From assembly GCA_948144175.1 (NCBI GenBank), contig CANXME010002486.1, positions 4,092,001 to 4,156,000 on the forward strand: DNA of 64,000 bases, read 5' to 3'. Position numbers and translations under genes: made by a program. The DNA is from Closterium sp. NIES-65 (taxonomy: Eukaryota > Streptophyta > Zygnematophyceae > Desmidiales > Closteriaceae). Shown piece after piece: positions 1 through 43,440 of the stretch; positions within the stretch are counted from its first letter, which is position 1, and every line of letters begins with the position of its first letter. The notes under the pieces were generated by a model. The model saw nothing but the letters and a program-made list of their open reading frames with translations, was not told the DNA's origin and did no database searches.

Positions 1-1350
1 ACGTCCTTGAGGACAGGCAGGAGGAGTTCCAGTGTTTGGCTGCTGCTTCACCTCATCTCGTGTTCGTACTGCTTACCCCTGAGGGAGACCCGGATGCACT
101 TGACATCCCGACTCCGCGCTGTTACGCGGAGGCGATAGAGGGTCCCTACTCCTCTCAGTGGCAGGCAGCTATGGACACAGAGATGGCTTCCTGGAAGTCC
201 ACAGGCACCTACGTTGACGAGGTTCCCCCTCCTGGGGCGAACATCGTCAGTGGCATGTGGATTTTCAGGGTGAAGCGGCCGCCGGGTTCTCCGCCTGTCT
301 TCAAGGCGCGTTACGTGGCTCGTGGCTTCAGATAGCGGCAGGGAGTTGAATACTTTCAGACCTTCTCTCCCACCCCGAAGATGACCACTATTCGGGTACT
401 GCTGCACGTAGCTGCTCACCGTGACTACGAGCTGCACTCTCTTGACTTCAGCACTGCCTTCTTGCAGGGCAGCCTGCACGAGGAGATCTGGATGGGCCGC
501 CCACCTGGCTTCACTGGGTCTTTTCCTCCTGGCACCCAGTGGAGCCTCAGGCAGCCAGTCTACGGTCTCCGCCAGGCACCGCGCGAGTGGCACGACACAC
601 TGAGGACTACACATGCGGCTCTTGGGTTTGCCCCTTCTACTGCCGACCCGTCGCTGTTTCTGCGCACCGACACTTCTTTGCCGCCGTTCTACGCAGGGGC
701 CATGGCTGCACAGGAGCTTTGCTGGCTCACCTACCTGCTGACTGACCTTGGAGAGCCGCCTCGTTCTCCTCCAGTTCTGTACGTAGACAACAAGGCCATG
801 CTGGCCTTGTGTCGAGAGCAGAGACTGGGGCACAGAACAAAGCACATTGCTCTCCGCTACTTCCTTGCTTGTGAGCTACAGCAGCGTGGTCAGTTGCGGC
901 TTGCGTACGTGGCCTCTGAGGCCAACACTGCTGATTTCTTCACCAAGGCACTTGCGCCTTGTGATCATCAGCGCTTCTGTACTCAGCTGGGTCTTGTGCC
1001 TGTCTTGCCTCACTTGCTCACCTCTTGACCTTGCTTGTCCTGTTACATATATATATACCTGCTCTTGCTTGTCTAGCCTTATATATATATGTACTCCTGC
1101 ATGTGATATGGCCCTGTGGCCATGAACTTGTGCTCGGAATGTGTGGTGACTTTGTGATCCACCCTTAGCTTGCTTTGCTTGACTGGTCTTGTGACCCCTT
1201 GTTCTCCCCCACTTTGCCTATGGGGGTGTGTCAGAACATTATAGCTTATATATTTGTGTAGGCTGTAGTGGGGTAGCCCATAAGGGGTACAACCCAATTA
1301 GGGTTAGTACTTGTACCCAACTCTTTCATAGTTCATTCATTCTCGTTTCA
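1..1350 (+). mobile_element. Element A: short-LTR Copia relic, 3' part (runs off the window start)
   Basis: The plus strand encodes the reverse transcriptase start (motif WIFRVKR near 262-282, then ARYVARGF), the palm region with STAFLQGSLHEEIW near 450-490, and the RNase H end (ELCWLTYLLTDLG, LYVDNKAMLALC, ANTADFFTKAL) up to about 1028. A noncoding tail and a 3' LTR follow. This is the Ty1/Copia order, and it matches elements C, F, H, I and J closely. The 5' part lies outside the window. The copy is a fossil, broken in a few places and reduced between reverse transcriptase and RNase H. Its 3' LTR is followed directly by coding sequence of a different Copia lineage (B), which suggests A landed inside B. 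Confidence 0.9.
1229..1350 (+). repeat. 3' LTR of element A, preceded by polypurine tract
   Basis: Starts TGTCAGAACA directly after the purine-rich TATGGGGGTG (1219-1228), the plus-strand priming site, and ends TTTCA. It contains the family core GTAGCCCATAAGGGGTAC. The length of about 122 bp is typical for this family. The right boundary is set by the TG...CA rule, and the left LTR is outside the window. Confidence 0.8.
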
Positions 1351-3145
1351 TAGTTCATTCGAGGAGGATGAGGATTTTCTGGAGCTCGACCTCGACATGC
1401 ATGCCAACTCCGAGCACCGTTGGGATATCTCGACGATGACGGTGAAGGAGGCGTTGGCGAGTTGGAAGGGCCCGGCGGTGAAGGCCGCCATGGAGGAGGA
1501 GATCCACACCCTCATCAACATGGGCACATGGGAGCTGGTCGAACGCCCGCTAGGAGTGAACATCATGAAGAACCGGTGGGTGCTGCCGACGAAGTACCGC
1601 ATCGACGACACCGTCGAGCGCGAGAAGGCAAGGCTGGTCATGAAGGGCTTCACCCAAGTGTATGGCGCCGACTACGACGAGACGTACGCGCCGGTCAGCA
1701 GCCACGTCACGCTGAGGATCTTCCTTAGCATCGTCGCCGTCCTCAACCTCAACCTGATGCAGCTCGACATGAAGAATGCCTTTCTGCAGAGCAAGCTCGA
1801 CTGGGTGCTGTACATGTCCCAGCCGGACTACTTCAACGACGGAAGCGGTCGGGTGTGCAAGCTGATGAAGAGCCTCTACGGGCAGAAGCAGTCGCCTCTG
1901 CTGTTGTACAGGGCTCTCGACGGTGTGCTGCTGGGCGCTGGCTGGAAGAAGAGTCAGGTCGACACGGCGCTCTACTTCAATGTCGGCAAGGATGGCGTGG
2001 CCTGCTGGGTGCTGGTCTACGTCAACGATCTTCTCGCCGCGATCAGCAGCACCGCGATGCTGAAGGAGCTGCTAGAGGCCACCTCCGAGCTGCGCGAGAT
2101 TTCACCGGTGCAGAATTACCTCGGCCTAGAGATCATGCGCGTCAGGCCTGGGAGGAGGTTGTGGCTGCACCAGCAGGGCTACGCCGACAAGCTGCGCAGG
2201 TGCTTCATCGACAAGGAGCCGACCGTACGCACTCCGAAGACGCCGGTCTCGGTCGACGCCTACGCCAAGCTCACCTTCGATGACGAGGAGGCACAGGAGC
2301 GTCAGGAGGAGGAGTACCGGCAGAAGGTCGGCTCGCTGCAGTTCGTGGCGACAATGACGAGGCCGGACATCGCCTTCATCTGCAGCAATTTGGGGAGCGT
2401 CTTCACGGCGAGGAGCGACCAGCACTAGCGCGAGGTCGACCGCTGCCTTGCCTACCTCGCCAACACGCGTGACACCGCCCTGGAGTTTGGCGGTGGACCG
2501 GAGTTGCTGGAGCAGGTCGGCTACGTGGACGCCTACGACGCAGGTGACAAGCAGAACAGGATGAGCACGAGCGGCTACGTGTTTGTCTACGGAGGGGCCG
2601 CAGTCTCCTGGTCAAGCCAGCGCATCAAATGCGCGACGCTGTCGTCGACCGAGTTGGAGTATGTGGCGGCCACTGATGCCAGCAAGGAGGGACGCCGCCT
2701 TCGCTTCCTTGCAGAGTTCCGGCAGCTGAATGCCGGGAAGCCGACCGTCCTTCGGGTGGACAACAAGTCGGCCATCACGGTCGCCGAGGGCATGGGGTTG
2801 ACGGGCAACCTCAAGCACATGGAGCAGCGACAGGCATGGCTGCAGCACATGGTGAAGAGCGGGAAGTTTTCACTAAAGTACATCCCGACCGCTGAGCAGC
2901 CGACCGACTTCCTGACGAAGGCGCGGCACTACCCGGCCTTCAACCGGTGCTCCGTTGCAATCGGCCAAGAACGCCTAGACGATGAGGGCGATGGTGACAA
3001 CACGTGCAGGTGTAGGTTCCATGCCCTCTTGCATGGCTGGTGCGGTGACCGGCGTGCTGTGCGTTGTGTGCACGTCAACGGGCTATTATCTGAGCAGTGC
3101 TGCCGTGTGGGCTGGGGGGGCCCAACCGATAACGCGGCAGGGGAG

Positions 3146-4180
3146 TGTCAACGGGAGTAGTGTTTGGCCCCGTCCTTGCTTGGTCGGAGCCGAGCGCGGG
3201 AGATCGTGGGAGGCCGCGGGGCCGCGGGAGGCCGCGGGGCCGCGGGAGGCCGCGGGAGACCGCAGGGCGGTGGGAGACCGCGGGGCCGCGGGAGACTGTG
3301 GGAGGCCGCGGGGCCGAAAGAGGCCGTGGGAGACCGTGGGGCCACGGGAGGCCGCGGGAGACCGCGGGGCCACAGGAGGCCGCGGGAGGCCGCGGGAGAC
3401 CGCGGGGCCGCGGGAGACCGCGGGGCCGAAAGAGGCCGTGGGAGACCGCGGGGCCGCGGGAGGCCGCGGGAAGCCGCGGGAGATCACGAGGCCGCGGGAG
3501 GCCGCGGGAGGCCGCAGGAGGCCGCGGGGGACCGCGGGGCCGCGGGAGGCCGTGGGGCAAACACGGGACCGCGGAGGCCGCGGGAGACAACCACGGGACC
3601 ACAGGGACTGCGGTGGCCGCGGATGGACGACCGGGGGCCACGGGAGCCGCGGGATACCCGGTCGACCAGGATACCCGGGCGACGTATGCGAAAGTCGCCG
3701 GGGGTGTTTTCCGCGAGGACGACCTCGGGGGTGGTATCCCGAGGTCGACGTGGCTGGTGGGCGCCGTCACGGGTGGAGCGTCTACGCTGGGCATGTGACG
3801 GGGCGTTGGGCGCCAACCAGCTGCACGCATCTGCGAAGTTGGTGCACCATTGTCAGGCGGGTGCAACGGTGTGCAGCCGACTTGCTGCAGCGTTGGCACA
3901 CCGCGGACTTGCAACATTGGCAAGCCGCGACTCTGCTCTGCTGGAGCGCGGTCGATCACGTCGTGCTGGCACGCAGTCGGCCGTGCTGCGCTGACAGTCG
4001 ACCAGCAGCCTTGCTAGGTTTGTTGTAGTCTGTGTTGCCAACGTTGTTGCTATCATTGCCAAATTTCCCTGTGAACCAGCAAGTAGTGCAAGCACAAGTA
4101 AATGACTAAGGAACAAACGTAGAGATCACACAAGCATCCGTGCCTAGCCCATAGTCTAGCTCCCGTTGTAATAGTTATCT
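3146..4180 (+). repeat. Probable 3' LTR of element B, about 1 kb
   Basis: A purine-rich tract (GGCAGGGGAG, 3136-3145) is followed by TGTCAACGGG, a typical plant Copia LTR start, just after the RNase H frame. The right end is placed where gag-like sequence of element C begins (about 4181-4187), so it is approximate. No partner LTR is in the window to confirm it. The interior holds a GC-rich minisatellite and then a moderately GC-rich stretch without credible genes. Confidence 0.45.
3190..3600. repeat. GC-rich minisatellite, units of about 10-14 bp
   Basis: Tandem variants of GGCCGCGGGA and GGCCGCGGGAGACC run for about 400 bp, with occasional longer units carrying GGCCGAAAGAGGCC. All frames on both strands stay open over much of it, giving Arg/Gly- or Pro/Arg-rich translations. 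Those frames are by-products of the repeat and not genes. The array lies inside the probable LTR of element B. Confidence 0.85.
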
Positions 4181-4186
4181 CCACAC

Positions 4187-5260
4187 CAACCACCTGCCGT
4201 TAGCCGAACGCGCTCACTTTGGCCAGCAGAAGACTGCAAAAGCCCTGTATGACGCTGTAGTCACTCGTTACTCCTACCCGGCCACTGCTTCTCTAGGCCG
4301 CCTTCTCCTACCCTACCTGTTCCCCGAACTGTCCGCCTTTGCCACAGTTGTTGACCTCGTCACTCACCTTCGCACTAGTGACGTCCGCTACCGAGTCGCG
4401 CTTCTCACCGAGTTCCTCACCAAGAACCCTCCTCCCACGTACGTCACTCTCTACTTCATAGTCACCCGCCTCCCTGACTCTCTTAGCGCTGTCAAGGACC
4501 TCCTTCTCGCCCTTGACCCCACAGTCCTTACTGTCGACCTGCTCGAGAAGCACCTCCTTGCAGCTGAGACTAGCATAGTCGCTGTAGGCGCTTCCCGTGG
4601 CACTCCTCGCACTCCCTTCTTTGAGGGGTGTTCGCCCTCCCCCCTCTACTCTCAGTCGCCTTTGCTGCAGCTGTTGACTACCTTCGTGCTGAGGAGTTAG
4701 GAGCTGCGTCTGCCCCTAGTGGGAGGCGCCGAAGCGGCAGGGGCAGGGGAGGTAGGGGCGGTGGGGTGGCAGAGGTGGAGGCGGTGGAGGGGGCGGCGGT
4801 GGCGGAGGGAGTGGTGGTGGGGGTGGAGGCGTAGGTGGCGGCGATGGTGGCGGCAGTGGGAGTGGTGGCGGTGGCAGTGGTGGCGGCACTGGAAGTGGAG
4901 GCGGCGGCAGTGGTGGAGGCCGAGGTGCTAACAGCCAGAGGGGAGGCCTTCTCAATAGGCAGAGGCAGCAGCAGCAGCGTTAGCATGAGACTCTTTCGCC
5001 TCAGAAGCTACGTGAGTGGTGTGCTTAGCTTAGGGCGGCTGGGGGTAGTGGTCGCTACCCGTATGTCATTCGCACAGGTGACCGCTCTGGTCAAACATGC
5101 GGGAAGCTTCACAAATAATACCGCTGCTTCTTTTGTCTTGACGACGCCTTCCACTCAGAGTTTCGCGACGCGGCTGAGCTCTCCCGGTGGGCAGAGCTGC
5201 TTAGGTAGGGTGTGGATATCTTTGCTCTTCATTATGATGCTATCCTTGCTGCCATGTATG
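4187..5260 (+). pseudogene. C: gag, Gly-rich tract and Cys-His module
   Basis: The gag fragment (about 4187-4630) matches the family Gag found at 21778 and 29348, including the stretch around THLRTSD and the sequence before EVF/EFC-KNPP. A Gly-codon-rich tract follows (4700-4930), then the motif LSPQKLREW (about 4987-5015), then the family Cys-His module (about 5055-5140) and the sequence ending DAILAAMYAL. It is part of fossil element C. Confidence 0.75.
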
Positions 5261-5389
5261 CTTTGACTTTTAGTGCTGAGGGTGACTGCTACCTGTGTAT
5301 ACCGCCAGACCCAGGTATAGAGGCTGCTGCTCTAGGTGCTAGTGAGTCTGCTGCTCGAGGTACTGGTGAGTCTGCTCTCTCTGGTACTG

Positions 5390-6735
5390 CGTCTGCTGCA
5401 GCCTTGCACACCTTCACGCTTGACTCAGGTGCTTCGCGCTCTTTCTTTCGCAACAGTACCACAGTCACACCGCTCTCTGCACCTGTTGCTGTCTCTCTGG
5501 CTGACCCCTCTGGGGGCCCAGTCCTTGCACGTTCCTCCACTATTCTGCCATGTCCAGCGGTTCCGCCTGGCTCACTGTCAGGTCTTCACCTCCCCTCGTT
5601 CTGTACAAACTTGGTCAGAAACGCTGTCCTTCAGGATGAGTGAGTTGATACCTTCACCCTAGGAGGACAGCGTGTGGTGATCTGTACGTGCTCCCGGACT
5701 AGCAGGCACCTGGACACGTTCACCCGTCGGCCTGGGTCGAGTCTATACACACTGACTACTGCGCCTCCTCATGTAGCTGCTTCTGCGTCTGTGTCAGGTC
5801 AGCTAGCGACCCCCGGCTTGTTTCGCGCCCTGTCGCACCAGATGCTCCTTTGGCACCACCGCCTTGGTCACCCATCAGTGGCACGCCTCTGTGGCATGCA
5901 ATCCTGTCTCCTTGTCTCTGGCCTTCCCAGGTCTCTGCCTCTCCTCCCACCCTCGCCTGCCCCTCCCTGTCTTCCCTGTGTCGAGGGGCTGCAGCGCGCC
6001 GCTCCTCACTCCTCCTCGTTCCCCCCGAAGACTGCTTCCCTGCACACTCTCCACATGGATGTGTGGGGCCCAGCCCGCGTCCATGGACAGGGCTGCGAGT
6101 GCTACTTTATGCTGATTGTCGACGACTGCATGCATTACACCATGGTCTTCCCCTTGCGCGGCAAGGGGGAGGTCCATGATGTTTTGATCCCTTGGATCCG
6201 CGATGTTCATCTTCACCTCCGGTTTGAGATGGACCTTCCCATCCTGCGTCTGCACTCTGACAGAGGTGGTGAGTTTTCCTCAGACCTCTTGCGGGACTTT
6301 TGTCGTTGGGAGGGCATTCTGCAGACGTTCACCTTCCGGCCTCTCCGCAGTAAAATGGGGTTGCTGAGCGCCACATTGGCTTAGTCATGGAGGTCGCTCG
6401 TACCTCCATGATCAATGTGGCTGCCCCCCATTTTCTACGGCCGTTTGTGGTCCGATACGCTGCACATCAGCTCAACCTCTGACCCCATGTCTCCTTGCCG
6501 AAGACCTCACCGACACTGCGTTGGACGAGAGAGGTTGGCGATGCGTTGGTATTCCGGGTCTAAGGATCTCGTGCCTTTTGTCTGCGATACCACCGCGGAC
6601 AAACTCTCCTCCCGCGCCATTCCCTGTGTCTTCCTTGGCTTTCCCCCTGAAAATCCTGGTTGGCAGTTTTACCACCCCACCTTGCGCCGTACCCTGCCCT
6701 CTCAGGACGTCACGTTTGACGAGTCGGCTCCCTTT
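5390..6735 (+). pseudogene. C: aspartic protease, pre-integrase and integrase region
   Basis: The protease site DSGASRSFF lies near 5425-5450. The pre-integrase block with WHHRLGHPS is near 5850-5880, and the catalytic integrase core has MDVWGPA, VDDC.HYT and LHSDRGGEFSSD between about 6050 and 6290. The integrase C-terminal part reads to the edge of element D at 6735. It is fossil coding sequence of element C. Confidence 0.8.
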
Positions 6736-6862
6736 TGTCAGGATGAGAGAAGTGGTTGGACTAGCAACATTGGGAGTACAAGTAGGAAAACCTAGAATAT
6801 TGTACCCCCTAAGGCTAAACCCACTGTAGCCTACAGAATAGTAACATATATGATGTTTGACA
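6736..6862 (-). repeat. 3' LTR of element D
   Basis: On the minus strand it begins TGTCAAACATCATATATG and ends with TGACA. It pairs with 13583-13709 and is 127 bp long. A TATA-like CATATATG lies near its 5' end. Confidence 0.93.
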
Positions 6863-7097
6863 CACCAACATAGGCTAATTGGGGTAGAGCAAGGGGTCAC
6901 AAGACTAGTCAAGAAAGACAAAGCAAGCTCAGGGTGGATCACAACGTCACCACACTCACTGAGCACAAGCAAAGAGCCACAAGGCCAGTTCACATGTAGA
7001 GGCATATATGCAACACAAAACAATACAATGATCTCTGCCTAGCAAAGCAAGCATGCAGATATATATATACATATGTATATATATATATACATATAGA

Positions 7098-8440
7098 TCA
7101 CAGTACAGGCAAAGCCTGCAGCAAGTGAGGAAAGGTGGGCACAAGCCCTAGCATAGTGCAGAAACGTTGATGATCACCAGACTGAAGTGCCTTGGTGAAT
7201 ATATCAGCAGTGTTGGCCCGAGTGGCCACGTAACGCAGACGAAGCTGACCACGCAGCTGCAACTCTCGATCCAGGAAGTAACACAGAGCGATGTGCTTTG
7301 TTCTGTGCTCCAGTCTGTGCTCCTCACACAAGGCAATGGCAGCCTTGTTGTTGACGTACAGCACTGGAGAAGAACGAGGCCGCTCTCCCAGGTCAGTCAG
7401 CAGGTAGGTGAGCCAGCGTAACTCCTGTGCAGCCATGGTTGTGGCGTAGATCTCAGCCTCACAACTGGAGCTGAGAACTGAAGACGAGCGAGTAGAACGC
7501 CAAGAAACTGAACCAGAGCCAAGGCTGAAGGTGTAACCCTGTGACGACCGCTGAGTAGCCTGGTCGTCAACCTAAGAAGCGTCTGAGTGCCCAGTGAGAA
7601 CAACTGAGCTCCTCCCTCCAAGCACGAGCCCCATGCCTGATGTACTGCACAAGTAGCGCAAGACCCTCTTAGCAGCAGCCATGTGCTCCGGTCGGTGCCG
7701 ACCAGGAGCCACGTAGCGAGCCAGAAGGCCAAGAGGGTACGCGAGGTCAGGACGAGTGCAAGTGATCAGGTACATGAGGCAGCCAACTAGCTCTGGGTAA
7801 GGACCACTCGGCTCTACGGACTCGTCCGAAGGTGGAGCTGAGAGCGAGTGACCTGTAGCCAGAGGAGTGGCCTGTGCCGAGGACCAGGTGAAGTCGAAGC
7901 GTTGAAAGACCTGCTACACCATGTGTGACTGAGTCAGTGTGATGGCGCAGCGTGCTCTGTCCCGGGTGATCTGCAAGCCAATGTAGCTGCGCAGCTCACC
8001 CAAATCTGTGCGCGTGTGTCTCTTATGCAGCTCCGACTTCACGTGGGCGAGAGCCTCAGTGTCAGCAGTTGCAAAGACCAAGTTGTCGTAAGTGCCTGTG
8101 GACTTCCAGGATGCCATCTCTTCGTCCATGGCTGTCTGCCACTGAGAGGAGTACTCACCCGCCATCGCCTTAGCGTAAGAGCACGGGGTCGGGATGTTTG
8201 GTGCATCCGGGTCTCCCTCAGGTGCAATCAGCATGGACACGAGATGAGGTACAGCAGCGGCAAAGCACTCAAACTCCTCCTTCCTGTCCTCAAGGACGTC
8301 CGTGCCAAGAGCACACTCACCCCCGACGGACAGAGGACAAACAGACTCAGACTAAGCAACAAGACTCGCGGCGTAGTCTAGACGGCAGTGAGTAGCAAAG
8401 TCGACAAGCTCAGCAACTAAGGCAGACGCAGCAGCTGACT
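7098..8440 (-). pseudogene. D: RNase H and part of reverse transcriptase
   Basis: Minus-strand coding for RNase H (AAQELRWLTYLLTDLGE, LYVNNKAAIALC, ANTADIFTKAL) and the upstream palm/connection region (MYLITCTRPDLAYPL, LGELRSYIGLQITRDRA). It matches the same parts of elements H and I. It belongs to fossil element D and is broken and shortened. Confidence 0.8.
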
Positions 8441-8494
8441 CAAAGGAAGGGTTAGTGACAGCAGTGGCCAGGAGACGCGTGAAAGTGGGACTAG

Positions 8495-8676
8495 TGTCTG
8501 AATGTTATATTTGTTATCTAGCCTGCAGTGGGGTACTCTATAGCGAGTATAACCCCTTAGGGTTTCATATATGTATCCCCTTGCTTGCTAGTACAAACCC
8601 TCTTTGCCTAACTTCTTTCTTGCCTAGCTAGGTTAGTCCTAGCTATGGCTACTACCGTTAACTACCTTATTTCACA
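8495..8676 (+). repeat. Solo LTR inserted in element D, with ACTAG duplications
   Basis: A 182-bp plus-strand segment starting TGTCTGAATG and ending TTTCACA interrupts element D. It is flanked by ACTAG at 8490-8494 and 8677-8681, a perfect 5-bp target duplication. It keeps the family architecture (TG...CA ends, TATA-like ATATTTG, AGTGGGGTA block, downstream hairpin) but is longer and divergent. It is therefore a related LTR family left by recombination between LTRs. Confidence 0.88.
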
Positions 8677-8699
8677 ACTAGCAGCACGACGAGAGTCAG

Positions 8700-9990
8700 A
8701 CTCCGGGTCAGCAACTACAGGAAGAGAGGACGCAGGAGGAGACGGCAGTGGGACACGCTGGGGAGCAATGGAAGGTCGCAAAGGGATATAGTGAGTGCCA
8801 GGGATAGGAGGAGGACGCTCACGTGGAACACGGCGACTAGTGCGGACAGCACAGACAGGCGACGGTGGACGAGACTCAGGCGACGCAGGACGAGACTCAG
8901 GCTCACGACGCTCCGTAAAACTGCTAGTCGGCCCAACGTAAGGAGAAGGACCAGGCAGCGGAGAGGCAGGCTGTAACGTTGACTGCGACTGGACAGGCGG
9001 AAGACACTCTAAAGAGGGAGCAAGACAAGGAGGAGGCGGCTGACCAAGAACCTGATGAAGGAGCAGAACGAAGTACGGCCGCGGCCGCGAAGTGCCCCTT
9101 GAACCAGCAGAGACATCACCAGAGCCCCCAGCAGCATCTCCAACTCCTGTAGCACCACCAGCAGCTCCAGTAGTGCCAACTCCAGTACCCCCAGTAGCAC
9201 CAGCTCCAGCCGCACCATCGGCTCTAGCACCTGTAGGAGGACAGGCGTCAACACCTCCAGCTCCAGCTCCTGCAGCACCACCAGCCCCAGTACCAGTAGC
9301 ACCTCCAGTCCCAGCAGCTCAAGCACCGCCAGCTCCAACTCCAGCACCAGCAGCACCTCCAGCAGCTCCAGCACCAGCAGTACCTCGAGTAGCTCCAGCA
9401 CCAGCAGCACCTCCAGTAGCACCAGCTCCAGCAGCTCCAGCTCCAGCTCCAGCAGAACTTCCAGTCCCAGCAGCTCCAGTACCGCCTGTACGAGCACCTC
9501 CAGGACCAGAGGCTCCAGCACCTCCAGTAGCACCAGGGCCTCCAGCGGGCGGCACTCTAGTGCTAGGAGCGCCGCTCCGAAGGTTGCAGCGCCGAGCGTA
9601 CCACTCACGCAGTCGCTCTGGGGAGGGAGGCTCCGGCCGCGACACAGTACTCGCAGCTCCCCCAGCTCCAACTTCGGCAGAAACCCCAGCTCCAGCAGCC
9701 CCACGCCGGAGGCCGCAACACTGAGAGTACCACTCACGCAGCTGCTGTGAAGAGGGAGCGCCACCAGGCGCAGCAGGGTCAGTCTTAGCTCCCCCAGGCT
9801 CAGCACCCCCAGTCTCAGCACCCCAGGCTCAGCACCCCCAGTCGCAGCACCCTCAGGCTCAGCACCCCCAGTCTCAGCACCCCCAGGCTCAGCACCCCCA
9901 GTCTCAGCACCACCTGACTCAGCACCCCTCGCCTCAGTACCCCTCGCAGGACCAGAGTTGACAGCTACCTCGACAGGCTCGACCGGGTCT
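8700..9990 (-). pseudogene. D: low-complexity linker between integrase and reverse transcriptase
   Basis: Minus-strand Ala/Gly/Thr/Pro-rich coding (repeats such as GAGATGGAAGAG) carrying two copies of the LREWYA motif (about 9586-9625 and 9725-9755) and Ser/Pro/Arg-rich sequence towards the reverse transcriptase. The many long antisense frames here are by-products of the composition. It is part of fossil element D. Confidence 0.7.
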
Positions 9991-11620
9991 ACCTGGGAAA
10001 CACCTGAGGGAGCAGCACCCTGGGGAGGGAGGGGGTCTACCGAAGGGACACCTGGGTTGAGGAAAAGCGGCGGGGGGGGAAGTGGCGCAGTGCGGTAGGG
10101 GTACACACGGTAAAAGGGTATCGACTCGTCAAAAGTGACGTCCTGAGAGGGGAAGACACGGCGCGAGGTGGGGTGGTAAAACTGCCAGCCAGGCGCGTCA
10201 GGGACAAAGCCAAGGAAGACACAGGGAACGGCACGGGAGGAGAGCTTGTCCGCGGACGTATCGCGGACAAAGGCTCGACATCCCCAGACCCGGAACATCG
10301 ACGCATCGCCAACCTCCCCCGTCCAACGCAGTGTGGGCGAGGTCTCCGGAGCAGAGACACGGGGCCAGAGGATGAGCTGATGCGCAGCGTACTGCACTGC
10401 AAACGGCCACAGGAAATGGGGGGCAGCCGCATGGATCATGGAGGTACGAGCGACCTCCATGACGAGACCAATTTGGCGCTCAGCAACCCCATTTTGCTGT
10501 GGAGAGGCCGGAAGCGTGAACATCTGGCGGATGCCATGCTCCGCACAGTAGGCTGCTAAGAGATCGGAGGAAAACTCACCACCCCTGTCAGACTGCAGAC
10601 ACAGGACGGGAAAGTCCAACTGGAACCGCTTGCAGAGCTGGAGACGAGCTGCGCGGATCCAAGGGATCAAAACATCAGGGACCTCACCCTTGGTGCGCAA
10701 GGGGAAGACCGTGGTGTAGCGCGTGTAGTCGTTGACGACAAGCAGGAAGTACCACTCGTGGCCCTGTCCATGGACGCGGGCTAGGCCCCACACGTCCAGG
10801 TGGAGAGTCTGCAAGGGAGCCTCTGTGGGAGGGAACGAGGAGGAGTGAGGAGCGACGCGCTGCCGCCCCTCGACCCAGGGAAGACAGGGAGGCGCAGGCA
10901 AGGGTGGGAGGGGAGGGAGAACCCTGGGAAGACCAGAGACAAGGTACTGGGAGTGCATGCCATGGAGGCGCTGCACTGAGGGGTGACCAAGGCGGTGGTG
11001 CCAGAGGACGGTCTGGTGCAACAGGGTGCGACACGAGCAAAGGGCCGTCAACTGACCTGACGCAGACGCAGACGCAGCTACCCAAGGGGACTCAGTGGTC
11101 AGTGTGTACAAGTCCGACCCCGGCTGCCAAGTGAAGGTAGCCAGGTGGCGACCCGTCCAAGCACACGTACAGTGGGTCACACGCTCATAGGCAGGGGTGA
11201 ACTGGTGAACACCCCCGTCCTGGAGAGCAGAGCCCGCCACCAAGTTCGTAGAGAACGAGGGGAGGTAAATACCCAACAGGGTGCCGGACGGGACCGCAGG
11301 ACAAGGGAGGACAGTGGAGGAGGTTGCAAGGACGGGGCCCTAAGAGGGGTCAGCGAGGGAGAAAGCAACAGGCCGAGCTAGCTGCTCAAGGACAATGCGG
11401 TCACGAAGGAAACAGCGGGAAGCACCCGAGTTCAGTGTGAAGGTGTGCACTGCCTCAGTAGACGCAGTACCAGCAGACGCACGAGTACCTGGAGCAGTAG
11501 ACTCACTAGCACCTAGAGAAGCAGCCTCACCAGGACCTAGGGCAGCAGACGCACTAGCACCTAGAGCGGCAGCCTCACTGGTCCCAATACAAGGGTCGGG
11601 CGGTACACGCAGGTAACAGT
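9990..11620 (-). pseudogene. D: protease, pre-integrase and integrase region
   Basis: Minus-strand stretches encode the protease site (TLNSGASRCFLRD near 11400-11440), the pre-integrase block (WHHRLGHPSVQRL near 10980-11010), the integrase catalytic core (LHLDVWGLARVHGQ, VNDYTRYTTVF, LQSDRGGEFSSDLL, SPQQNGVAERQIG) and the integrase tail (PCVFLGFVPDAPGWQFYHP). The order and spacing match element I. It is fossil coding sequence. Confidence 0.85.
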
Positions 11621-11629
11621 CACCCTCAA

Positions 11630-33700: not shown

Positions 33701-34352
33701 GCCTGTCTTCAAGGCGCGTTACGTGGCTCGTGGCTTCAGTCAGCGGCAGGGAGTTGACTACTTTCAGACCTTCTCCCCCACCCCAAAGATGACTACTCTT
33801 CGGGTACTGCTGCACGTTGCTGCTCACCTTGACTACGAGCTGCACTCTCTTGACTTTAGCACAGCTTTCTTGCAGGGCAGCCTGCACGAGGAGATCTAGC
33901 TGCGCCGTCCACCTGGCTTCACAGGGAGTTTTCCTTTTGGCACCCAGTGGAGCCTTCGACGGCCAGTCTACGGTCTCCACCAGGCACCACGCGAGTGGCA
34001 CGACACACTTAGGACTACGCTTGCGGCTCTTGGGTTTGCTCCCTCTACTGCTGACCCGTCGCTGTTTCTACGTACCGACACCTCTCTGCCGCCGTTCTAC
34101 ATCCTTGTGTACGTCGACGACTTGGTCTTCGCCACCGCTGACACTGCTGGACTCGCCTACGTGAAGTCCGAGCTGCAGAAGAGACACTCGTGCACTGACC
34201 TGGGTGAACTGCGCAGCTACCTTGGCTTGCAGATCACCCGGGACAGAGCACGCCGCACCATTACCCTGACTCAGTCACACATGGTGCAGCAGGTCCTTCA
34301 GCGCTTCGGCTTCACGTACTCCTCGCCTCAGGCCACTCCTCTGCCTACTCGC
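30696..34352 (+). pseudogene. H: protease, integrase, linker and reverse transcriptase
   Basis: Domains in order are the protease (FTLDSGASRSFFRDRT near 30905-30950), pre-integrase (WHHRLGHPSLLRLRGM near 31378-31420), integrase (VVDDYSRYTTVFPLRSKGDV, LHSDRGEEFSSG, SPQQNGIADRRID, PCVFLGFPPDAPGWQFYHP), a Gly/Ala/Glu-rich linker with LSPQELREWFAQRWRR (about 32705-32750), the conserved RPYFVPLLQQVLGLP, and the reverse transcriptase up to the I insertion, with YVDDLVFATAD near 34107-34140. Fossil, with a few breaks. Confidence 0.88.
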
Positions 34353-34485
34353 TGTGAGAATAAGCGAACAGGAATGAATGAAACTAGCAGTGAAATGAGT
34401 ACAAGTAGGAAACCCTAGAATTGTGTACCCCCTATAGGCTAACCCACTGTAGCCTACACAAGCATAACATGTATAATGTTTGACA
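34353..34485 (-). repeat. 3' LTR of I
   Basis: Element strand TGTCAAACATTATACATG to TTATTCTCACA, identical to 41364-41496. The polypurine tract CTATGGGGGTG lies at 34486-34496 on the element strand. Confidence 0.96.
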
Positions 34486-34691
34486 CACCCCCATAGGCAA
34501 AGTGGGGGAGAACAAGGGGTCACAAGACCAGTCAAGCAAAGCAAAGCAAGCTCAGGGTGGATCACAAAGTCACCACACAGTCCGAGCACAAGAGCAGGGC
34601 CAGAGGCCAGTTCACATGCAGGAGTACAGACATATATATAAAACTAGACAAGCAAGAGCAGGTATATATATATGTCACAGTACAAGTGAAG

Positions 34692-37600
34692 TCAAGAGGA
34701 GAGCAAGTGAGGCAAGACAGGCACAAGACCCAGCTGGGTGCAAAAGCGCTGATGGTCACAAGGCGCGAGTGCCTTGGTGAACACATCAGCAGTGTTGGCC
34801 TCAGAGGCCACGTACGCAAGTCGCAACTGACCACGCTGCTGCAACTCACGAGCAAGAAAGTAGCGGAGAGCAATGTGCTTCGTTCTGTGCTCCAAGCGCT
34901 GCTCTCGACACAAGGCCAGCATGGCCTTGTTGTCTACGTACAGCACTGGAGGAGAACGAGGCGGCTCTCCAAGGTCAGTCAGCAGGTAGGTGAGCCAGCG
35001 AAGCTCCTGTGCAGCCATGGCCCCGGCGTAGATCTCAGCCTCACAACTGGAGCCGAGAACCGAAGACGAGCGAGTAGACCGCCACGAGACAGAGCCGGAA
35101 CCAAGGCTGAAGGTGTAACCCTGTGACGACCGCTGCGTAGTCTGGTCGTCAGCCCAAGAAGCGTCCGCGTGGCCGGTAAGGACCACTGGACTCCGCCCTC
35201 CAAGCACAAGCCCCATGCCCGACGTACTGCACAGGTAGCGCAATACCCTCTTCGCTGCAGCCATGTGCTCTGGTCTGTGTCTCCCAGGAGCAACATAGCG
35301 TGCAAGAATGCTCAGAGGATATGCAAGGTCAGGTCGTGTGCAGGTCATCAGGTACATGAGGCAGCCAACAAGCTCTGCATACGGACCACTCGACTCTACG
35401 GACTCATCCGAAGGCAGAGCTGAGAGTGAGTGGCGAGTAGGCAGAGGAGTGGCCTGAGGCGAGGAGTACGTGAAGCCGAAGCGCTGAAGGACCTGCTGCA
35501 CCATGTGTGACTGAGTCAAGGTAATGGTGCGGCGTGCTCTGTCCCGAGTGATCTGCAAGCCAAGGTAGCTGCGCAGTTCACCCAGGTCTGTGCACGTGTG
35601 TCTCTTCAGCAGTTCGGACTTCACGTAGGCGAGTCCAGCAGTGTCCGCTGTGGCAAAGACCAAGTCGTCGACGTACACGAGGATGTAGAACGGCGGCAGT
35701 GAAGTGTCGGTGCGCAAAAACAGCGACGGGTCAGCAGTAGAAGGAGCAAACCCAAGAGCCGCAAGCGTAGTCCTCAGTGTGTCGTGCCACTCACGCGGTG
35801 CCTGGCGGAGACCGTAGACTGGCCGTCGGAGGCTCCACTGGGTGCCAGGAGGGAAAGTCCCAGTGAAGCCAGGTGGACGGCGCAGCCAGATCTCCTCGTG
35901 CAGGCTACCCTGCAGGAACGCAGTGCTGAAGTCGAGAGAGTGAAGCTCGTAGTCGCGCTGAGCGGCTATGTGCAGCAGCACCCGAAGAGTGGTCATCTTC
36001 GGGGTGGGAGAGAAGGTCTGAAAGTAGTCAACTCCCTGCCGCTGACTGAAGCCACGAGCAACGTACCGCGCCTTGAAGACAGGTGGAGAGCCCGGCGGCC
36101 GCTTCACCCGGAAGATCCACATGCCACTGACGATGTTCGCCCCAGGAGGGGGAACTGCGTCAACGTAGGTGCCTGTGGACTTCCAGGAAGCCATCTCTGC
36201 ATCCATAGCTGCCTGCCACTGAGAGGAGTAGGGACCCTCTACGGCCTCCGCGTAAGAACGCGGAGTCGGGATGTCTAGTGCATCCGGGTCTCCCTCAGGG
36301 GCAAGCAGTACAGACGCGAGATGAGGTGAAGCAGCCGCTAGACACTGTAACTCCTCCTGTCTGTCCTCTAGGACGTCCGTGCCAAGAGCACACTCACCCC
36401 CGACGGACGGAGGACAGACAGACGCAGACTCAGCAACAAGACCAGCAGCGTAGTCGAGACGACAGCGAGCAGCAAAGTCAACGAGCTCAGCGACTAGAGC
36501 AGACGCAGCAGTGGACTCAAAAGAGGGGTCAGTGACGACAGTAGCAAGCAGACGCGTGACAGTAGGACTGGCAGCGCGAAGAGAGTCCGACTCAGGGTCG
36601 GCAAGCGCAGGAAGAGAGGACTCAGGAGGCGAAGGCAAAGGGGCACGCAGAGGAGCAGTGGACGGACGCAGAGACATCCGGTGCGTGCCAGGGACAGGAG
36701 GAGGACGCTGACGCGAACCGCGACCACTAGCGCGAGCAGCACGAACAGGCGACGCGGGACGAGACGCAGGCTCACGACGCTCAGCAAGACCTCCAGTAGG
36801 ACCAGTGTAAGGAGAGGGAGCAGGCAGAGGAGAGGAAGGCTCCAACAGTGACTGCGACTGGACAGGCTGTGGACACTCTACCGAAGGAGAAAGACCAAGA
36901 ACCTGCTGTAGGAGCGGAACGAAGTACGGCCGAGGCCGCGCGGCAGCTCCAGACTCAGCAGGGACAGCACCAGCACCCTCAGCGACAGCACCAGCGCCAC
37001 CCACACCTCCAGCGGCAGGACCAACAGCAGTAGGCTCAGCACCAACGCCCTCAGTACCTCCAGCTCCAGGAGGACCCGCAGGTCCAGCAGCTCCGGGACC
37101 GGCAGCACCCGCACCCTCGACGGTCGAAGAAGCTCCAGCACCAGCTCCAGCAGCACCTCCAGACTCAGCAGCACGCCTCCAGCGGCGAGCGTACCACTCG
37201 CGCAGCTCCTGTGGAGAGAGGGGCTCCCGGCGAGACGCAGCAGCAGGAGAAACCCCAGGCTCAGCAGCTCCAGCTCCAGCAGGACCCGCAGGTCCAGTAG
37301 CTCCGGGACCGGCAGCACCCGCACCCTCGACGGTCGAAGAAGCTCCAGCTCCAGCTCCAGCAGCACCTCCAGACTCAGCAGCACGCCTCCAGCGGCGAGC
37401 GAACCACTCGCGCAGCTCCTGTGGAGAGAGGGGCTCCCGGCGAGACGCAGCAGCAGGAGAAACCCCAGGCTCAGCAGCTCCAGGCGCAGCACCCCCAGGC
37501 TCCGCACTCTCCGCAGTAGCACCCGCAGGCCCAGTACCCCCAGCAGTAGCACCCCCAGGCTCAGCACTCCCGCGCACAGCACCCCCAGAGTCAGCACCCC

Positions 37601-39956
37601 CAGGCTCAGCACCCCCGCGCACAGCACCCCCAGAGTCAGCACCCCCAGGCTCAGCACCCCCGCGCACAGCACCCCCAGAGTCAGCACCCCCAGGCTCAGC
37701 ACCCCCGCGCACAGCACCCCCAGAGTCAGCACCCCCAGGCTCAGCACCCGCAGCAGCACCAGAGTCACCTGTAACCTCGACCGGGTCAACGGCGTCTACC
37801 TGGGACACACCTGAGGGGGCAGGAACCTGAGGGGGAAGGGGGTCTATCGGGGGGGGAACCGGTACAAGGAAGTCCGGGGGAGGGGGGAGGGAAGGAGTGC
37901 GGTAGGGGAAGAGACGGTAGAAGGGGACTGACTCGTCGAACGTGACGTCCTGGGAGGACAGAACACGACGAGAGGAGGGGTGGTAAAACTGCCACCCTGG
38001 GGCGTCAGTGGGGAAGCCAAGGAAGACACAGGGAGCAGCACGAGGGGACAGCTTGTCCGCAGACAAGTCGCGGACAAACGCCCGAGATCCCCAGACACGG
38101 AACACAGACGCATCGCCAACCTTCCCTGTCCACAGTAAGGCTGGGGACATCGCAGGCCGAGAGACCCGGGGGTGAAGGTTGAGCTGATGCGCCGCGTACC
38201 TCACCGCAAACGGCCACAGAAAATGGGGGGCAGCCGCATGCATCATGGACGTACGAGCGACATCCATGACCATGCCAATGCGGCGCTCAGCAATCCCATT
38301 TTGCTGTGGTGAGTCCGGAAGCGTGAAGGACTGGCGGATGCCTCGCGCACGACAGTAGGCACGCAGAAGGCCAGAGGAGAACTCTCCGCCCCTGTCGGAG
38401 TGCAGACGCAGAACAGGAAAGTCCGAGCCGAAGCTCTTCCTGAGCCGGAGACGAGCCTCGCGGATCCAGTCGATCAGCACCTCAGTGACCTCACCCTTGC
38501 TGCGCAAGGGGAGGACTGTGGTGTAACGCGAGTAGTCGTCAACCACCAACAGGAAGTAGCGCTCGTAATCCTGCCCACGGACGGGGGCTGGGCCCCACAC
38601 ATCCATGTGAAGCGTCTGCAGGGGAGCCTCTGTCGGGGGGAAGTGGGAGGAGTGAGGAGTAGCCCGGAGGCGACCCTCGACACAGGGGACACAGGGAGGT
38701 CCTGGCCCGGAGGGGAGAGGAGGGAGAGACTGGGGAAGACCAGAGACAAGGACACGGGAAGCCATGCTCCGAAGACGGGGCAAGGAGGGGTGGCCAAGAC
38801 GGTGGTGCCACAGGAGAGTCTCGTGAGACAGGAGGCGACAAGTACAGGGGGCAGACTCAGGACCAGACCTGGACGCAGCAGCAAACACCTGACCCGACGC
38901 TGCTACCTGACCGGACGCGGGGACAGGAGGAGACTCAGTGGTCAGGGTGTAGAGGCTCGACCCCGGCCGACGCGAGAACGTGGCCAGGTGCCGGCCTGTG
39001 CGTGCGTCCGTGCAGTGGGTCACCCGCTGACTCGCAGGAGTGAACTGGTGAACCCCCGCATCCTGTAGGTCTGCACCACTCACCAAGTTCGTCGAGAACG
39101 AGGGGAGGTACAGGCCAGACAGGGTGCCCGAGGGGGCAGCCGGACACGGGAGGACAGTGGAGAAGTGAGCGAGGACAGGACCCCCAGAGGGGTCAGCCAG
39201 GGAGACTGCAACCGGCCGACCAAGCGGCGTGAGTGTGGTGCGGTCCCGAAAGAAGGAGCGAGAAGCCCCAGAGTCAAGTGTAAAGGTGAGGGAGGCCGAA
39301 GCCAACGCGGTACCTGAGAGCGCAGCCTCACCCGCACCTGAGGAAGCAGACTCACTAGCACCTAGAGCAGCAGCCGCACCTGTACCCGGAGCAGGAGACT
39401 CACTAGCACCCAGAGCAGCAGCCTCACCAGTAGCTAGAGCAGCAGGTCCTATACCTGGGTCAGGCGGGACGCACAGGTGACCTGCATGGTCAGCACTAGT
39501 AGGCAATGCATACATGGCAGTGAGAATAGCATCATAGTCAAGAGCATATATATCTACCCTCCGCCTAAGCAACTCCACCCAGTCGGGAAGCTCAGCCTCG
39601 TCGCCAAACACGGTACGCCAGGCGTCGCTCAGACGGGCGAAGCAGCGGGACGGTGTATGACTACGTGTCCCACAAGGCTGACCAGTCCGAGTACCAGTGC
39701 GAATCACGTAAGAGCAGCGAACAGCACTAAGAGACCCTCCACTCTGAGCGTACCACTCACGAAGCTGGCGAGGCGTGAGAGACACGCGAGAGGGTCGCGG
39801 GAGCTGCATCAGGCCGCCACCACGAGTAGAAGCAGCAGGAGTGGTAGTAGGAGTAGCGTCGCCACCCCTACAGCCCCAACCAGCGTACCACTCACGCAGC
39901 TGCTGCGGCGTGAGGGACTCACGCCGGCGTCGCTGGGGCTGCATTTGGATCCGCAA
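34692..39956 (-). CDS. I: Pol polyprotein, 1754 codons, Copia order
   Basis: One uninterrupted frame. The N-terminus carries two LREWYA motifs (about residues 15 and 70) and the Cys-His module (CSYVIRTGTRTGQPC, then H and C). The protease site DSGAS is near residue 229, and the pre-integrase WHHRLGHPS near 385. The integrase acidic residues lie in VDDYSRY (about 472), HSDRGGE (about 519) and NGIAERR (about 555). The Gly/Ala/Glu linker (about 700-1000) has 15-residue repeats and a 70-residue duplication with two more LREW motifs. The reverse transcriptase has WIFRVKR (about 1281) and YVDD (about 1428), and the RNase H has DNKAML (about 1672). The protein would be cut by its own protease and act in cytoplasmic particles and the nucleus. 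The first ATG of the frame (39956) is used; the real start is uncertain. Confidence 0.92.
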   Translation of the reverse strand: MRIQMQPQRRRRESLTPQQLREWYAGWGCRGGDATPTTTPAASTRGGGLMQLPRPSRVSLTPRQLREWYAQSGGSLSAVRCSYVIRTGTRTGQPCGTRSHTPSRCFARLSDAWRTVFGDEAELPDWVELLRRRVDIYALDYDAILTAMYALPTSADHAGHLCVPPDPGIGPAALATGEAAALGASESPAPGTGAAAALGASESASSGAGEAALSGTALASASLTFTLDSGASRSFFRDRTTLTPLGRPVAVSLADPSGGPVLAHFSTVLPCPAAPSGTLSGLYLPSFSTNLVSGADLQDAGVHQFTPASQRVTHCTDARTGRHLATFSRRPGSSLYTLTTESPPVPASGQVAASGQVFAAASRSGPESAPCTCRLLSHETLLWHHRLGHPSLPRLRSMASRVLVSGLPQSLPPLPSGPGPPCVPCVEGRLRATPHSSHFPPTEAPLQTLHMDVWGPAPVRGQDYERYFLLVVDDYSRYTTVLPLRSKGEVTEVLIDWIREARLRLRKSFGSDFPVLRLHSDRGGEFSSGLLRAYCRARGIRQSFTLPDSPQQNGIAERRIGMVMDVARTSMMHAAAPHFLWPFAVRYAAHQLNLHPRVSRPAMSPALLWTGKVGDASVFRVWGSRAFVRDLSADKLSPRAAPCVFLGFPTDAPGWQFYHPSSRRVLSSQDVTFDESVPFYRLFPYRTPSLPPPPDFLVPVPPPIDPLPPQVPAPSGVSQVDAVDPVEVTGDSGAAAGAEPGGADSGGAVRGGAEPGGADSGGAVRGGAEPGGADSGGAVRGGAEPGGADSGGAVRGSAEPGGATAGGTGPAGATAESAEPGGAAPGAAEPGVSPAAASRREPLSPQELREWFARRWRRAAESGGAAGAGAGASSTVEGAGAAGPGATGPAGPAGAGAAEPGVSPAAASRREPLSPQELREWYARRWRRAAESGGAAGAGAGASSTVEGAGAAGPGAAGPAGPPGAGGTEGVGAEPTAVGPAAGGVGGAGAVAEGAGAVPAESGAAARPRPYFVPLLQQVLGLSPSVECPQPVQSQSLLEPSSPLPAPSPYTGPTGGLAERREPASRPASPVRAARASGRGSRQRPPPVPGTHRMSLRPSTAPLRAPLPSPPESSLPALADPESDSLRAASPTVTRLLATVVTDPSFESTAASALVAELVDFAARCRLDYAAGLVAESASVCPPSVGGECALGTDVLEDRQEELQCLAAASPHLASVLLAPEGDPDALDIPTPRSYAEAVEGPYSSQWQAAMDAEMASWKSTGTYVDAVPPPGANIVSGMWIFRVKRPPGSPPVFKARYVARGFSQRQGVDYFQTFSPTPKMTTLRVLLHIAAQRDYELHSLDFSTAFLQGSLHEEIWLRRPPGFTGTFPPGTQWSLRRPVYGLRQAPREWHDTLRTTLAALGFAPSTADPSLFLRTDTSLPPFYILVYVDDLVFATADTAGLAYVKSELLKRHTCTDLGELRSYLGLQITRDRARRTITLTQSHMVQQVLQRFGFTYSSPQATPLPTRHSLSALPSDESVESSGPYAELVGCLMYLMTCTRPDLAYPLSILARYVAPGRHRPEHMAAAKRVLRYLCSTSGMGLVLGGRSPVVLTGHADASWADDQTTQRSSQGYTFSLGSGSVSWRSTRSSSVLGSSCEAEIYAGAMAAQELRWLTYLLTDLGEPPRSPPVLYVDNKAMLALCREQRLEHRTKHIALRYFLARELQQRGQLRLAYVASEANTADVFTKALAPCDHQRFCTQLGLVPVLPHLLSS
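37050..37480 (-). repeat. I: 210-bp tandem duplication in the pol linker
   Basis: Two near-identical 210-bp copies (for example CTCCGGGACC at 37091 and 37301 on the plus strand) keep the frame and duplicate a 70-residue block with the motif LSPQELREW(Y/F)ARRWRRA. Next to it (about 37555-37745) a 45-bp unit encoding 15 residues (type GGADSGGAVRGGAEP) is repeated four times. Confidence 0.88.
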
Positions 39957-41349
39957 GTAGAAGCAGGAGCAGGACTAGCAGCAGGGAGGCAGGCAGAGGC
40001 AGGCAGGCAGGCAAGCAGGCGACGCGCAGCGTGCTAGCAGGGCAAGAGCTCACCAGTGGTGGGAAGAGTAGGTTCGGCGACTCAGCGGCTCGGCAGCTCG
40101 GCGGCTCGGCGGCTCGGGCGACTCGGGCGGCTCGGCGGCAAGGCGGCTCAGCAGCAACTGCAGCTCAGTAGCTCGGTGACTCGGCGGCTCGGCGGCAGGG
40201 CGGCTCGGCAGCAACTGCAGCTCAGCAGCTCAGCGACCCGGCGGCTCGGCGGCAGGGCGGCTCGGCTGTGGGGCGGCTCGGCTGCTGCAGTGGGAGATGA
40301 AGGAGGAGGAGAAGCAGGGGAGGCCACACACCTGCCACCCCTCTGCTGGCCTCTCAGGTCGCCTCGACAGGCGACGGGAAAAGGGGGGGTGGGTGGTGGG
40401 GGGCCGGTAGGTGCAGCGGCGGGGCCAGCAGGTGCAGTTGCGGGGCCGGTAGAAGGGGACGGCAGGAGCCGTCAGGAGGGGACGGCGGGGCCGTCAGGAA
40501 GGGACGGTGGGGCCGTCACGAAGGGACGGCGGGGCCGTCAGGAGGTGACCGGGCCGCGACGGGGGCAGGCGGCGGGGCCGCGTAAGGGCCTGGGCGGGGC
40601 CGCGACAGAGCCGTCGGCGGGGCCGCGTGAAAGCCGGGGCGGGGCCGCGTAGAAGCCGGGGCGGGGCCGCGTAAGAGCAGGCGGCGGGGCCGCGAAGGAG
40701 CCGGGGCGGGGCCGCGTGAGAGCAGGCGGCGGAGCCGCGTAAGGGCCTGGGCGGGGCCGCGACAGAGCCGTCGGCGGGGCCGCGTGAAAGCCGGGGCGGG
40801 GCCGCGTAGAAGCCGGGGCGGGGCCGCGCAAGAGCAGGCGGCGGGGCCGCGAAGGAGCCGGGGCGGGGCCGCGTGAGAGCAGGCGGCGGAGCCGCGTAAG
40901 GGCCTGGGCGGGGCCGCGACAGAGCCGTCGGCGGGGCCGCGTGAAAGCCGGGGCGGGGCCGCGTAGAAGCCGGGGCGGGGCCGCGCAAGAGCAGGCGGCG
41001 GGGCCGCGAAGGAGCCGGGGCGGGGCCGCGTGAGAGCAGGCGGCGGAGCCGCGTAAGGGCCTGGGCGGGGCCGCGACAAAGCCGTCGGCGGGGCCGCGTG
41101 AAAGCCGGGGCGGGGCCGCGTAGAAGCCGGGGCGGGGCCGCGCGAGAGCAGGCGGCGGGGCCGCGAAGGAGCCGGGGCGGGGCCGCGTGAGAGCAGGCGG
41201 CGGGGCCGCGACAGAGAGGGCAGCGGGGCCGCGTCAGTGAAGGCGGCGGGGCCGCAGGGGAAATGGCGACCCGAGGGGTCGCTAAAAAAAAAAAGATCGC
41301 GCCTCGGGGGGCGCTTCGGTGGGCCCAAAAAAAACGGTCCGTAGAAGGA
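39957..41349 (-). repeat. I: GC-rich 5' leader; about four 157-bp tandem repeats
   Basis: From about 40565 to 41240 a 157-bp unit recurs: AAGGGCCTGG lies at 40584, 40741, 40898 and 41055, all spaced 157 bp. Each unit is built from short modules around GCCGCGTAGAAGCCGGGGCG. Nearer to pol (about 40075-40280) are GGCTCGGCGGC repeats as in the other leaders. The long Pro/Arg/Ala-rich frames on the minus strand and any plus-strand frames are composition artefacts. No gag is recognised. Confidence 0.88.
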
Positions 41350-41363
41350 CTCGCTCTATACCA

Positions 41364-41496
41364 TGTGAGAATAAGCGAACAGGAATGAATGAAACTAGCA
41401 GTGAAATGAGTACAAGTAGGAAACCCTAGAATTGTGTACCCCCTATAGGCTAACCCACTGTAGCCTACACAAGCATAACATGTATAATGTTTGACA
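41364..41496 (-). repeat. 5' LTR of I
   Basis: 133 bp, identical to 34353-34485, followed on the plus strand by the CTCGC duplication. Confidence 0.96.
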
Positions 41497-42239
41497 CTCG
41501 CCACTCACTCTCAGCTCTGCCTTCGGATGAGTCCGTAGAGTCGAGTGGCTCGTATCCAGAGCTTGTTGGCTGCCTCATGTACCTGATGACCTGCACACGA
41601 CCTGACCTTGCATACCCTCTTAGCATTCTTGCACGCTATGTTGCTCCTGGGAGACACCGACCAGAGCACATGGCTGTAGCGAAGAGGGTGTTGCGCTACT
41701 TGTGCAGTACGTCACGCATGGGGCTAGTGCTTGGAGGGCGGAGTCCAGTGGTCCTCACTGGGCACGTAGACGCTTCTTGGGCTGACGACCAGGCTACGCA
41801 GCGGTCGTCACAGGGTTACACCTTCAGCCTTGGTTCTGGCTCTGTCTCGTGGCGGGCTACTCGCTCGTCTTCTGTTCTCGGCTCCAGTTGTGAGGCTGAG
41901 ATCTACGCTGGGGCCATGGCTGCACAGGAGCTTCGCTGGCTCACCTACCTGCTGACCGACCTTGGAGAGCCGCCTCGTTCTCCTCCAGTCCTCTACATAG
42001 ACAACAAGGCCATGCTGGCCTTGTGTCGAGAGCAGAGACTGGAGCACAGAACAAAGCACATTGCTCTTCGCTACTTCCTTGCTCGTGAGCTTCAGCAGCG
42101 TGGACAGCTGCGACTTGCGTACGTGGCCTCTGAGGCCAACACTGCTGATGTCTTCACCAAGGCACTTGCGCCTTGTGATCATCAGCGCTTCTGCACTCAG
42201 CTGGGTCTTGTGCCCGTCTTGCCTCACTTGCTCTCCTCT
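41497..42239 (+). pseudogene. H: connection and RNase H region
   Basis: The stretch continues H directly after I: RHSLSALPSDESVESSG, MYLMTCTRPDLAYPLSIL, VVLTGHVDASWADDQATQ, CEAEIYAGAMAAQELRWLT, LYIDNKAMLALC, ANTADVFTKALAP, ending at about 42242. RNase H would remove the RNA template during cDNA synthesis. It is part of fossil H. Confidence 0.9.
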
Positions 42240-42449
42240 TGACCTTGCTTGTACTCTCACATATATATATACCTGCTCTTGCTTGTCTAGCTTTATATAT
42301 ATGTGTGTCCTCTTGCTTGTGAACTGGCAATGTGGCCCTGACCTTGTGCTCGGACTGTGTGGTGACTTTGTGATCCACCCTGAGCTTGCTTTGCTTTGCT
42401 TGACTGGTCTTGTGACCCCTTGTTCTCCCCCACTTTGCCTATGGGGGTG

Positions 42450-42579
42450 TGTCAGAATACTATATAGCTTATCCATTTGTGTAGGCTATAGTGGGGTATC
42501 CCATAGGGGGTACAACCCAATTAGGGTTTCCTATTTGTATCACTTCTATTCCTTAGTCATCCATTCTCATTCTTTCACA
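42450..42579 (+). repeat. 3' LTR of H with polypurine tract
   Basis: 130 bp, TGTCAGAATACTATATAG to TTTCACA, preceded by TATGGGGGTG (42440-42449) and followed by GCATG. Confidence 0.94.
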
Positions 42580-42584
42580 GCATG

Positions 42585-43440
42585 TTTAGTGCGTGATAGT
42601 CGATACGTATGAAAACCTCCGTCTTTTTTTTTGTGTGAACAGTATCGGTGCTGCAAACGGTGATGAGCTCACTTATGTGGACTTCTCCAGTAGGCAGTCT
42701 AGCTATTATTGCAGTTCGTCGAGTTGTCAATCTGAACTCTCGTTGCACCGTTGGTCGTGCCCCTGATTCTAGCTCTATGCGGTGGTCGTGTGCTCGCTAA
42801 AGTGGCAGTCCCTCCGGTAAGTCGTCAGGAAAATCCCGAAGTACCATTTCAGTAGTTCCTGTAGTTAGGGCGGTACGGCTGCTAACAGTTTCTGAAAATC
42901 GCTAGGTTTCTCTATCCCCCCCTTCACTACGTACACGTCAGCCCCAACAGTGACAACCCGTTTCATGGTGATGGCGTTGATGTGGGTTGTTGAAAATTCA
43001 GGCGACTGCTAGCGAGGTAGTGCGACCTAGTTACCATCGCTTCGCACACTGCAGCTACTGTCGTCCTGTCAATTCGCAGACAATCATGTCCAAGTAGAAT
43101 GTTGTGCCCATCTAGTGTCGTCGCGAGCATTTCCTGTGTAAACCCAAAATTACCCCCGTAGTAAATCTTTTGTATAGCCAGCACCGTGCCGTCAACTAAG
43201 CGTGCGTCGATCTCCGATAAGCAGCGGCTAAGTGTCAGTTGCAGTTTTCGTGCCATTGCGGTTTAACTAAGCTATGGCTTGCTCCTCTGCCGATAAAAAT
43301 CTTCACAGTTATCCCCTGAATTTTCCTGTGAATCAGTATTGGGCACTCTATCGCTGTACCCTCCATATTCAGCCGAGCCTGATCGATTGCGTGAATCGGT
43401 ACTGTGACTGGGTGAGGATTAGTGAGGTCTACTACGCACT
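42585..43440 (-). mobile_element. Gypsy relic G, piece 4: protease and RT start
   Basis: The minus strand encodes a retropepsin-like region (GITVKIFIGRGASHSLV near 43250-43290, IDARLVDGTVLAIQKIYYGG, MLATTLDGHNILLGHDCL near 43080-43130), the spacer, and a reverse transcriptase start with a DYHALN-like motif at about 42585-42610. RT continues across H at 28236. The same family appears on the plus strand at 63136. Upstream gag is not recognised because a CAG-rich array begins. Old fossil. Confidence 0.75.

Follow-up and report, generated by a model that had tools for sequence, protein, structure and literature searches.

Nested LTR retrotransposons with a partly readable insertion order in a 64-kb stretch of the Closterium sp. 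NIES-65 genome

Introduction

The closest described systems are the nests of LTR retrotransposons in plants, for which 1491 nested LTR pairs have been reported from 12 genomes (Jedlicka et al., 2019, PMC6911290); in the part of that study concerned with insertion sites, insertion is described as commonest in the 3'UTR and between domains. Resolving the insertion order of nested elements has been automated, as outlined in the description of REANNOTATE (Pereira, 2008, PMC2672092). According to the relevant portion of a later study, roughly one fourth of nested elements have an LTR divergence above that of their host (Jedlicka et al., 2020, PMC7251063), which makes LTR divergence a weak check of order. 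Here we analyse a cluster that an earlier note on this DNA had described as a Russian-doll nest of LTR elements with a readable insertion order; five steps of that order are well supported, whereas the three outer steps show one junction each.

Materials and methods

The window, by which we mean the whole stretch of DNA analysed (64 kb, 58.5% GC, no N), was compared with itself or with Pfam and PDB. For the empty-site test the flanks of an insertion were joined with one copy of the target duplication and aligned to relatives inside the window. Seven subject stretches were used per join, and alignments were counted if they extended at least 40 nt to either side of the junction. Control joins carried two copies of the duplication or were shifted by 7 nt. 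The chance frequency of target duplications was taken from 200,000 random TG..CA pairs in the window.

Results

Elements of the cluster

Self-BLAST of the window detected five LTR pairs of approximately 121–133 bp each (D, F, H, I and J), and Pfam found Ty1/Copia domains in A, B, D, F, H, I and J (Table 1). I has an open frame of 1760 codons with gag_pre-integrs (374–434), rve (450–556), SH3 (617–684) and RVT_2 (1277–1511) following one another in one frame (Pfam); integrase thus lies ahead of reverse transcriptase in pol, the arrangement of Ty1/Copia elements. A Pfam search of one C piece returned no match, and C was classed via its homology to the other Copia elements of the window (self-BLAST, I pol match). 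Searches with the I polyprotein gave 2 pattern matches in viral_contigs and 11 in genome_contigs, with no relatives in either. A near-identity plasmid search with 26000–28000 alone found no match, Rfam no family at gathering score, and a bacterial-code tRNA scan no tRNA.

Other features of the window include the Copia element J (46342–53625, minus strand), whose LTRs differ at 7 of 126 sites and which has a perfect target duplication (TTAAT). An open frame of 465 codons (58948–60342) encodes a DDE_Tnp_4 domain, that is, a DNA-transposon transposase. A minisatellite in which a CAG-rich unit of 27 bp recurs about 50 times occupies 55292–56622, and a degenerate repeat partly similar to it lies at 43460–44259. 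At 62327 on the plus strand there is a primer-site-like motif, TGGTATCAGAG, which possibly belongs to a further LTR element running past the window end.

Table 1. Elements and element pieces of the cluster, in order of position in the window.
Feature	Position	Strand	Ends and evidence
A, 3' part of a Copia element with 3' LTR from 1229	1–1350, right end approximate	+	RVT_2, I pol match, LTR alignment
B, Copia RT and RNase H region with probable 3' LTR from 3146	1355–4187, both ends approximate	+	RVT_2, I pol match
C, first piece: gag and pol start	4188–6735	+	homology to D, H, J and F
D, Copia element in C	6736–13709	-	LTRs 6736–6862 and 13583–13709; target duplication CCTTT/CATTT, one mismatch
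Solo LTR in D	8495–8676	+ (from its ends alone)	target duplication ACTAG/ACTAG
C, second piece: D-to-E interval	13710–14619	+	I pol match, empty-site joins
E, gag-bearing Copia remnant in C	14620–17292	-	target duplication GTCAG/GTCAG
C, third piece: remaining pol and truncated 3' LTR	17293–19876, right end approximate	+	I pol residues 1004–1760, LTR alignment
G, left piece: Ty3/Gypsy integrase, zinc finger part and core	19877–20695	-	Integrase_H2C2, Ty3 match, frames
F, Copia element	20696–25782	+	LTRs 20696–20820 and 25657–25782; flanks AGTAG/GATGG
G, middle piece: RNase H and RT	25783–28236	-	Pfam, Ty3 polyprotein matches
H, Copia element in G, contains I	28237–42579	+	5' LTR 28237–28357, 3' LTR 42450–42579; target duplication GCATG/GCATG
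I, Copia element in H	34353–41496	-	identical LTRs 34353–34485 and 41364–41496; target duplication CTCGC/CTCGC
G, right piece: RT N-terminal and protease region, by eye	42580–43440, right limit from earlier note	-	

Target duplications and empty sites

For seven insertions the window contains both ends, and in five of them (the solo LTR, E, H, I and J) the 5-bp target duplication is perfect; D agrees at four of the five bases and F at two. Among the random pairs, a perfect 5-bp match occurred at a frequency of 0.0014 and a match with at most one mismatch at 0.0195, so the duplication of D is weak by itself and leans on the empty-site test.

That test, the alignment to empty sites in other copies which the earlier note had proposed as a check, was run inside the window and was passed by four junctions: the solo LTR in D, D in C, E in C and I in H. 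Each join yielded four alignments (none came from D in C against F or from E in C against I), and all 16 spanning alignments of the joins with one target copy passed the junction, within 12 nt of it, without a net gap. The joins with two target copies gave a net gap of +5 in 15 of 16 cases and those shifted by 7 nt gave -7 in 15 of 16; the exception in both was E in C against D, with -7 (in a repeat-rich stretch) and -5, respectively. The four nestings, each proposed earlier from its target duplication, thus combine that duplication with an empty site, and all four junctions fall in coding frame (I pol residues 685, 1004, 1136 and 1514). The claim that coding sense resumes beyond every insert holds for these four Copia-internal junctions, whereas at the right flank of H in G the resumption was judged by eye.

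The same results bear on the possibility that the nest is an artefact assembled from reads of similar repeats. The Copia copies are approximately 72–93% alike over stretches of at least 1 kb (self-BLAST of the window), a setting prone to assembly error, and the cluster is known from the assembly alone; chimeric joins, however, are not expected to place 5-bp duplications exactly at TG..CA termini and at the same time let the host resume without a gap, and we regard such an artefact as extremely unlikely. Serial retrotransposition, with each insert younger than its host, is very probably the origin of the cluster.

Element E, which interrupts C, consists of a probable 5' LTR (about 16530–17292, approximately 760 bp), a primer site, gag (15166–16299), Pol_BBD and a short relic of the 3' LTR. 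Its primer site reads TGGTATCAAAGC, which is one base off the primer-site consensus. The 3' end of E matches the end of its 5' LTR over 12 nt (E-value 0.97 for this match alone); what lends the match weight is solely its terminal position and a 20-nt similarity next to it. With just one full LTR visible, a description of E as a complete element was dropped.

The Gypsy element and its inserts

On the minus strand, G carries RVT_1 (27192–27518), RT_RNaseH (26565–27053) and Integrase_H2C2 (20339–20620) (Pfam), i.e. reverse transcriptase, then RNase H, then integrase, the order of Ty3/Gypsy elements. Insertion of H into G, as proposed earlier, is borne out by a perfect target duplication together with host homology found by search on the left flank only, which matches the Ty3 RT from residue 665 with E 4.7e-08 and Pfam RVT_1 with no better than E 0.23. 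The right flank looks RT-like by eye, with frameshifts, and resembles the RT stretch just upstream; five pieces of it searched against Pfam and PDB gave no match.

C, together with A and B, probably lies within the same G copy as H, and so does F. Against the Ty3 polyprotein (7q5b_A) the G pieces match residues 665–725, 742–805, 888–1007 and 1219–1279 (E 0.00022 for the last, the integrase piece). Another reading, possible but rather unlikely in our judgement, is that the inner nests are real while the G pieces are not one shell around C, F and H: C would simply adjoin G, and F would sit in G through deletion or recombination after insertion. Several observations are in keeping with it. The 3' LTR of C stops short at G, lacking roughly its last 25–30 bases where the G integrase starts (by eye), and the left side of C lies beyond the window. 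F has no target duplication, its flanks differing at three of five positions, and the wording of F as a clean insertion in G was dropped. Unexplained DNA is present beside F and inside the RT: by hand arithmetic, with Ty3 as the yardstick and with linkers that vary among lineages, the interval between Ty3 residues 725 and 742 is probably about 0.56 kb too long and, F excluded, that between 1007 and 1219 about 0.55 kb too long, the latter figure being the weaker. The approximately 0.6 kb at 27435–28049 in the G RT gave just short, chance-level matches within the window and no convincing target duplication. Against this reading, the G pieces rise in Ty3 order along a single strand, and F is flanked by integrase on its left and RNase H on its right; we favour a single G copy around C, F and H. 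No G LTR was recognised within the window; the left part of G would fall beyond C, past the window. F itself lacks approximately 2.35 kb that is present in H (30336–32687), the stretch with the H rve and SH3 domains, so its integrase is absent.

The outer steps on the left

A, B and C each have their left portions beyond the window edge. A comprises RVT_2 (within 336–1025) and an I pol match (3–1025), and its 3' LTR is followed by the RT region of B (RVT_2 within 1277–2425; I pol match 1481–2923, 31%). Beyond the probable 3' LTR of B, which has a TG start at 3146, the gag homology of C sets in at about 4188, and this first piece of C runs through I pol residues up to 685. The suggestion that A lies in B, B in C gag and C in G agrees with these single junctions, while the truncation of the C 3' LTR at G speaks against the last step; nesting at all three appears plausible and is not confirmed.

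LTR divergence and stop codons

With LTRs of about 121–133 bp, each divergence figure represents 0–7 differences: 0/133 in I, 2/127 (1.6%) in D, 4/125 plus a 1-nt gap (3.2%) in F and 5/121 plus a 9-nt gap (4.1%) in H. The values given earlier for I, D and F are reproduced, whereas that for H had been put at about 3%. I is younger than H (0/133 against 5/121; Fisher p = 0.023), and this is the sole usable clock comparison within a chain. The earlier statement that divergence agrees with the insertion order is correct for this pair and was otherwise overstated, no other pair within a chain being comparable: D, F and H stand on separate branches, and for C, the host of D, the window contains no pair of LTRs, so that no order can be confirmed from the divergences of D, F and H.

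Counted against the frame of I, which is its own yardstick, with some overlapping matches included and small off-diagonal matches taken in (C 837–864 and J 694–720), in-frame stops number 15 in 1757 aa in C, 8 in 1580 in D, 1 in 230 in A, 2 in 1818 in H, 3 in 992 in F, 5 in 1271 in J and 0 in 1760 in I. These counts point the same way as the clock comparison of I with H, the host having more stops than its insert both for C and D and for H and I. D, however, has more stops than H or F despite its closer LTRs, which shows the clock to be noisy.

Orientation

In all five firm nestings (solo LTR in D, D in C, E in C, I in H, H in G) the insert runs antisense to the host, the strand of the solo LTR being judged by its ends alone. 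This is suggestive and not significant (two-sided sign test by hand, 0.06), and with the weaker cases included the count is seven of nine, F in G and C in G being antisense and A in B and B in C sense. D in C and I in H are clearly nests between related Copia copies. Sense nests of related elements would hold direct repeats and might tend to vanish by recombination; we nevertheless consider it doubtful that antisense orientation reflects a general filter on which nests survive.

Discussion

Two three-level chains stand: the solo LTR in D in C, and I in H in G. Where nesting is established, the inner element is by logic the younger. In the history that we consider very probable, an old Ty3/Gypsy copy (G) served as landing site for the Ty1/Copia element H, which later received the related Copia element I; the neighbouring Copia copy C received D and E, and D later the element that is now a solo LTR, probably reduced to this state by recombination between its two LTRs. 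On this reading integrase inserted each element in the ordinary way, through a staggered cut of 5 bp, so the inner element is always the younger. The cluster offers a clean worked example of relative dating via nesting, independent of the LTR clock, and shows how far one window reaches in reconstructing insertion order.

Nested LTR clusters are common and well described among eukaryotes, and the present one is ordinary, with nothing new in kind. Unlike the preferred insertion sites described for plant nests in the section cited above (PMC6911290), the four empty-site junctions here lie inside coding frame, which is no test of that pattern since coding sequence makes up most of these short-LTR elements. 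Where the account of REANNOTATE (PMC2672092) describes an automated procedure, the order was here resolved by hand in one window, with empty-site tests against relatives within it. As regards the exceptions to the clock noted in the cited part of PMC7251063, I in H, the only pair open to comparison here, behaves as expected. In its main features the cluster resembles the plant nests as the corresponding part of PMC6911290 presents them, with LTR elements lodged in older ones, some of them of the same family, and the inner element the younger.
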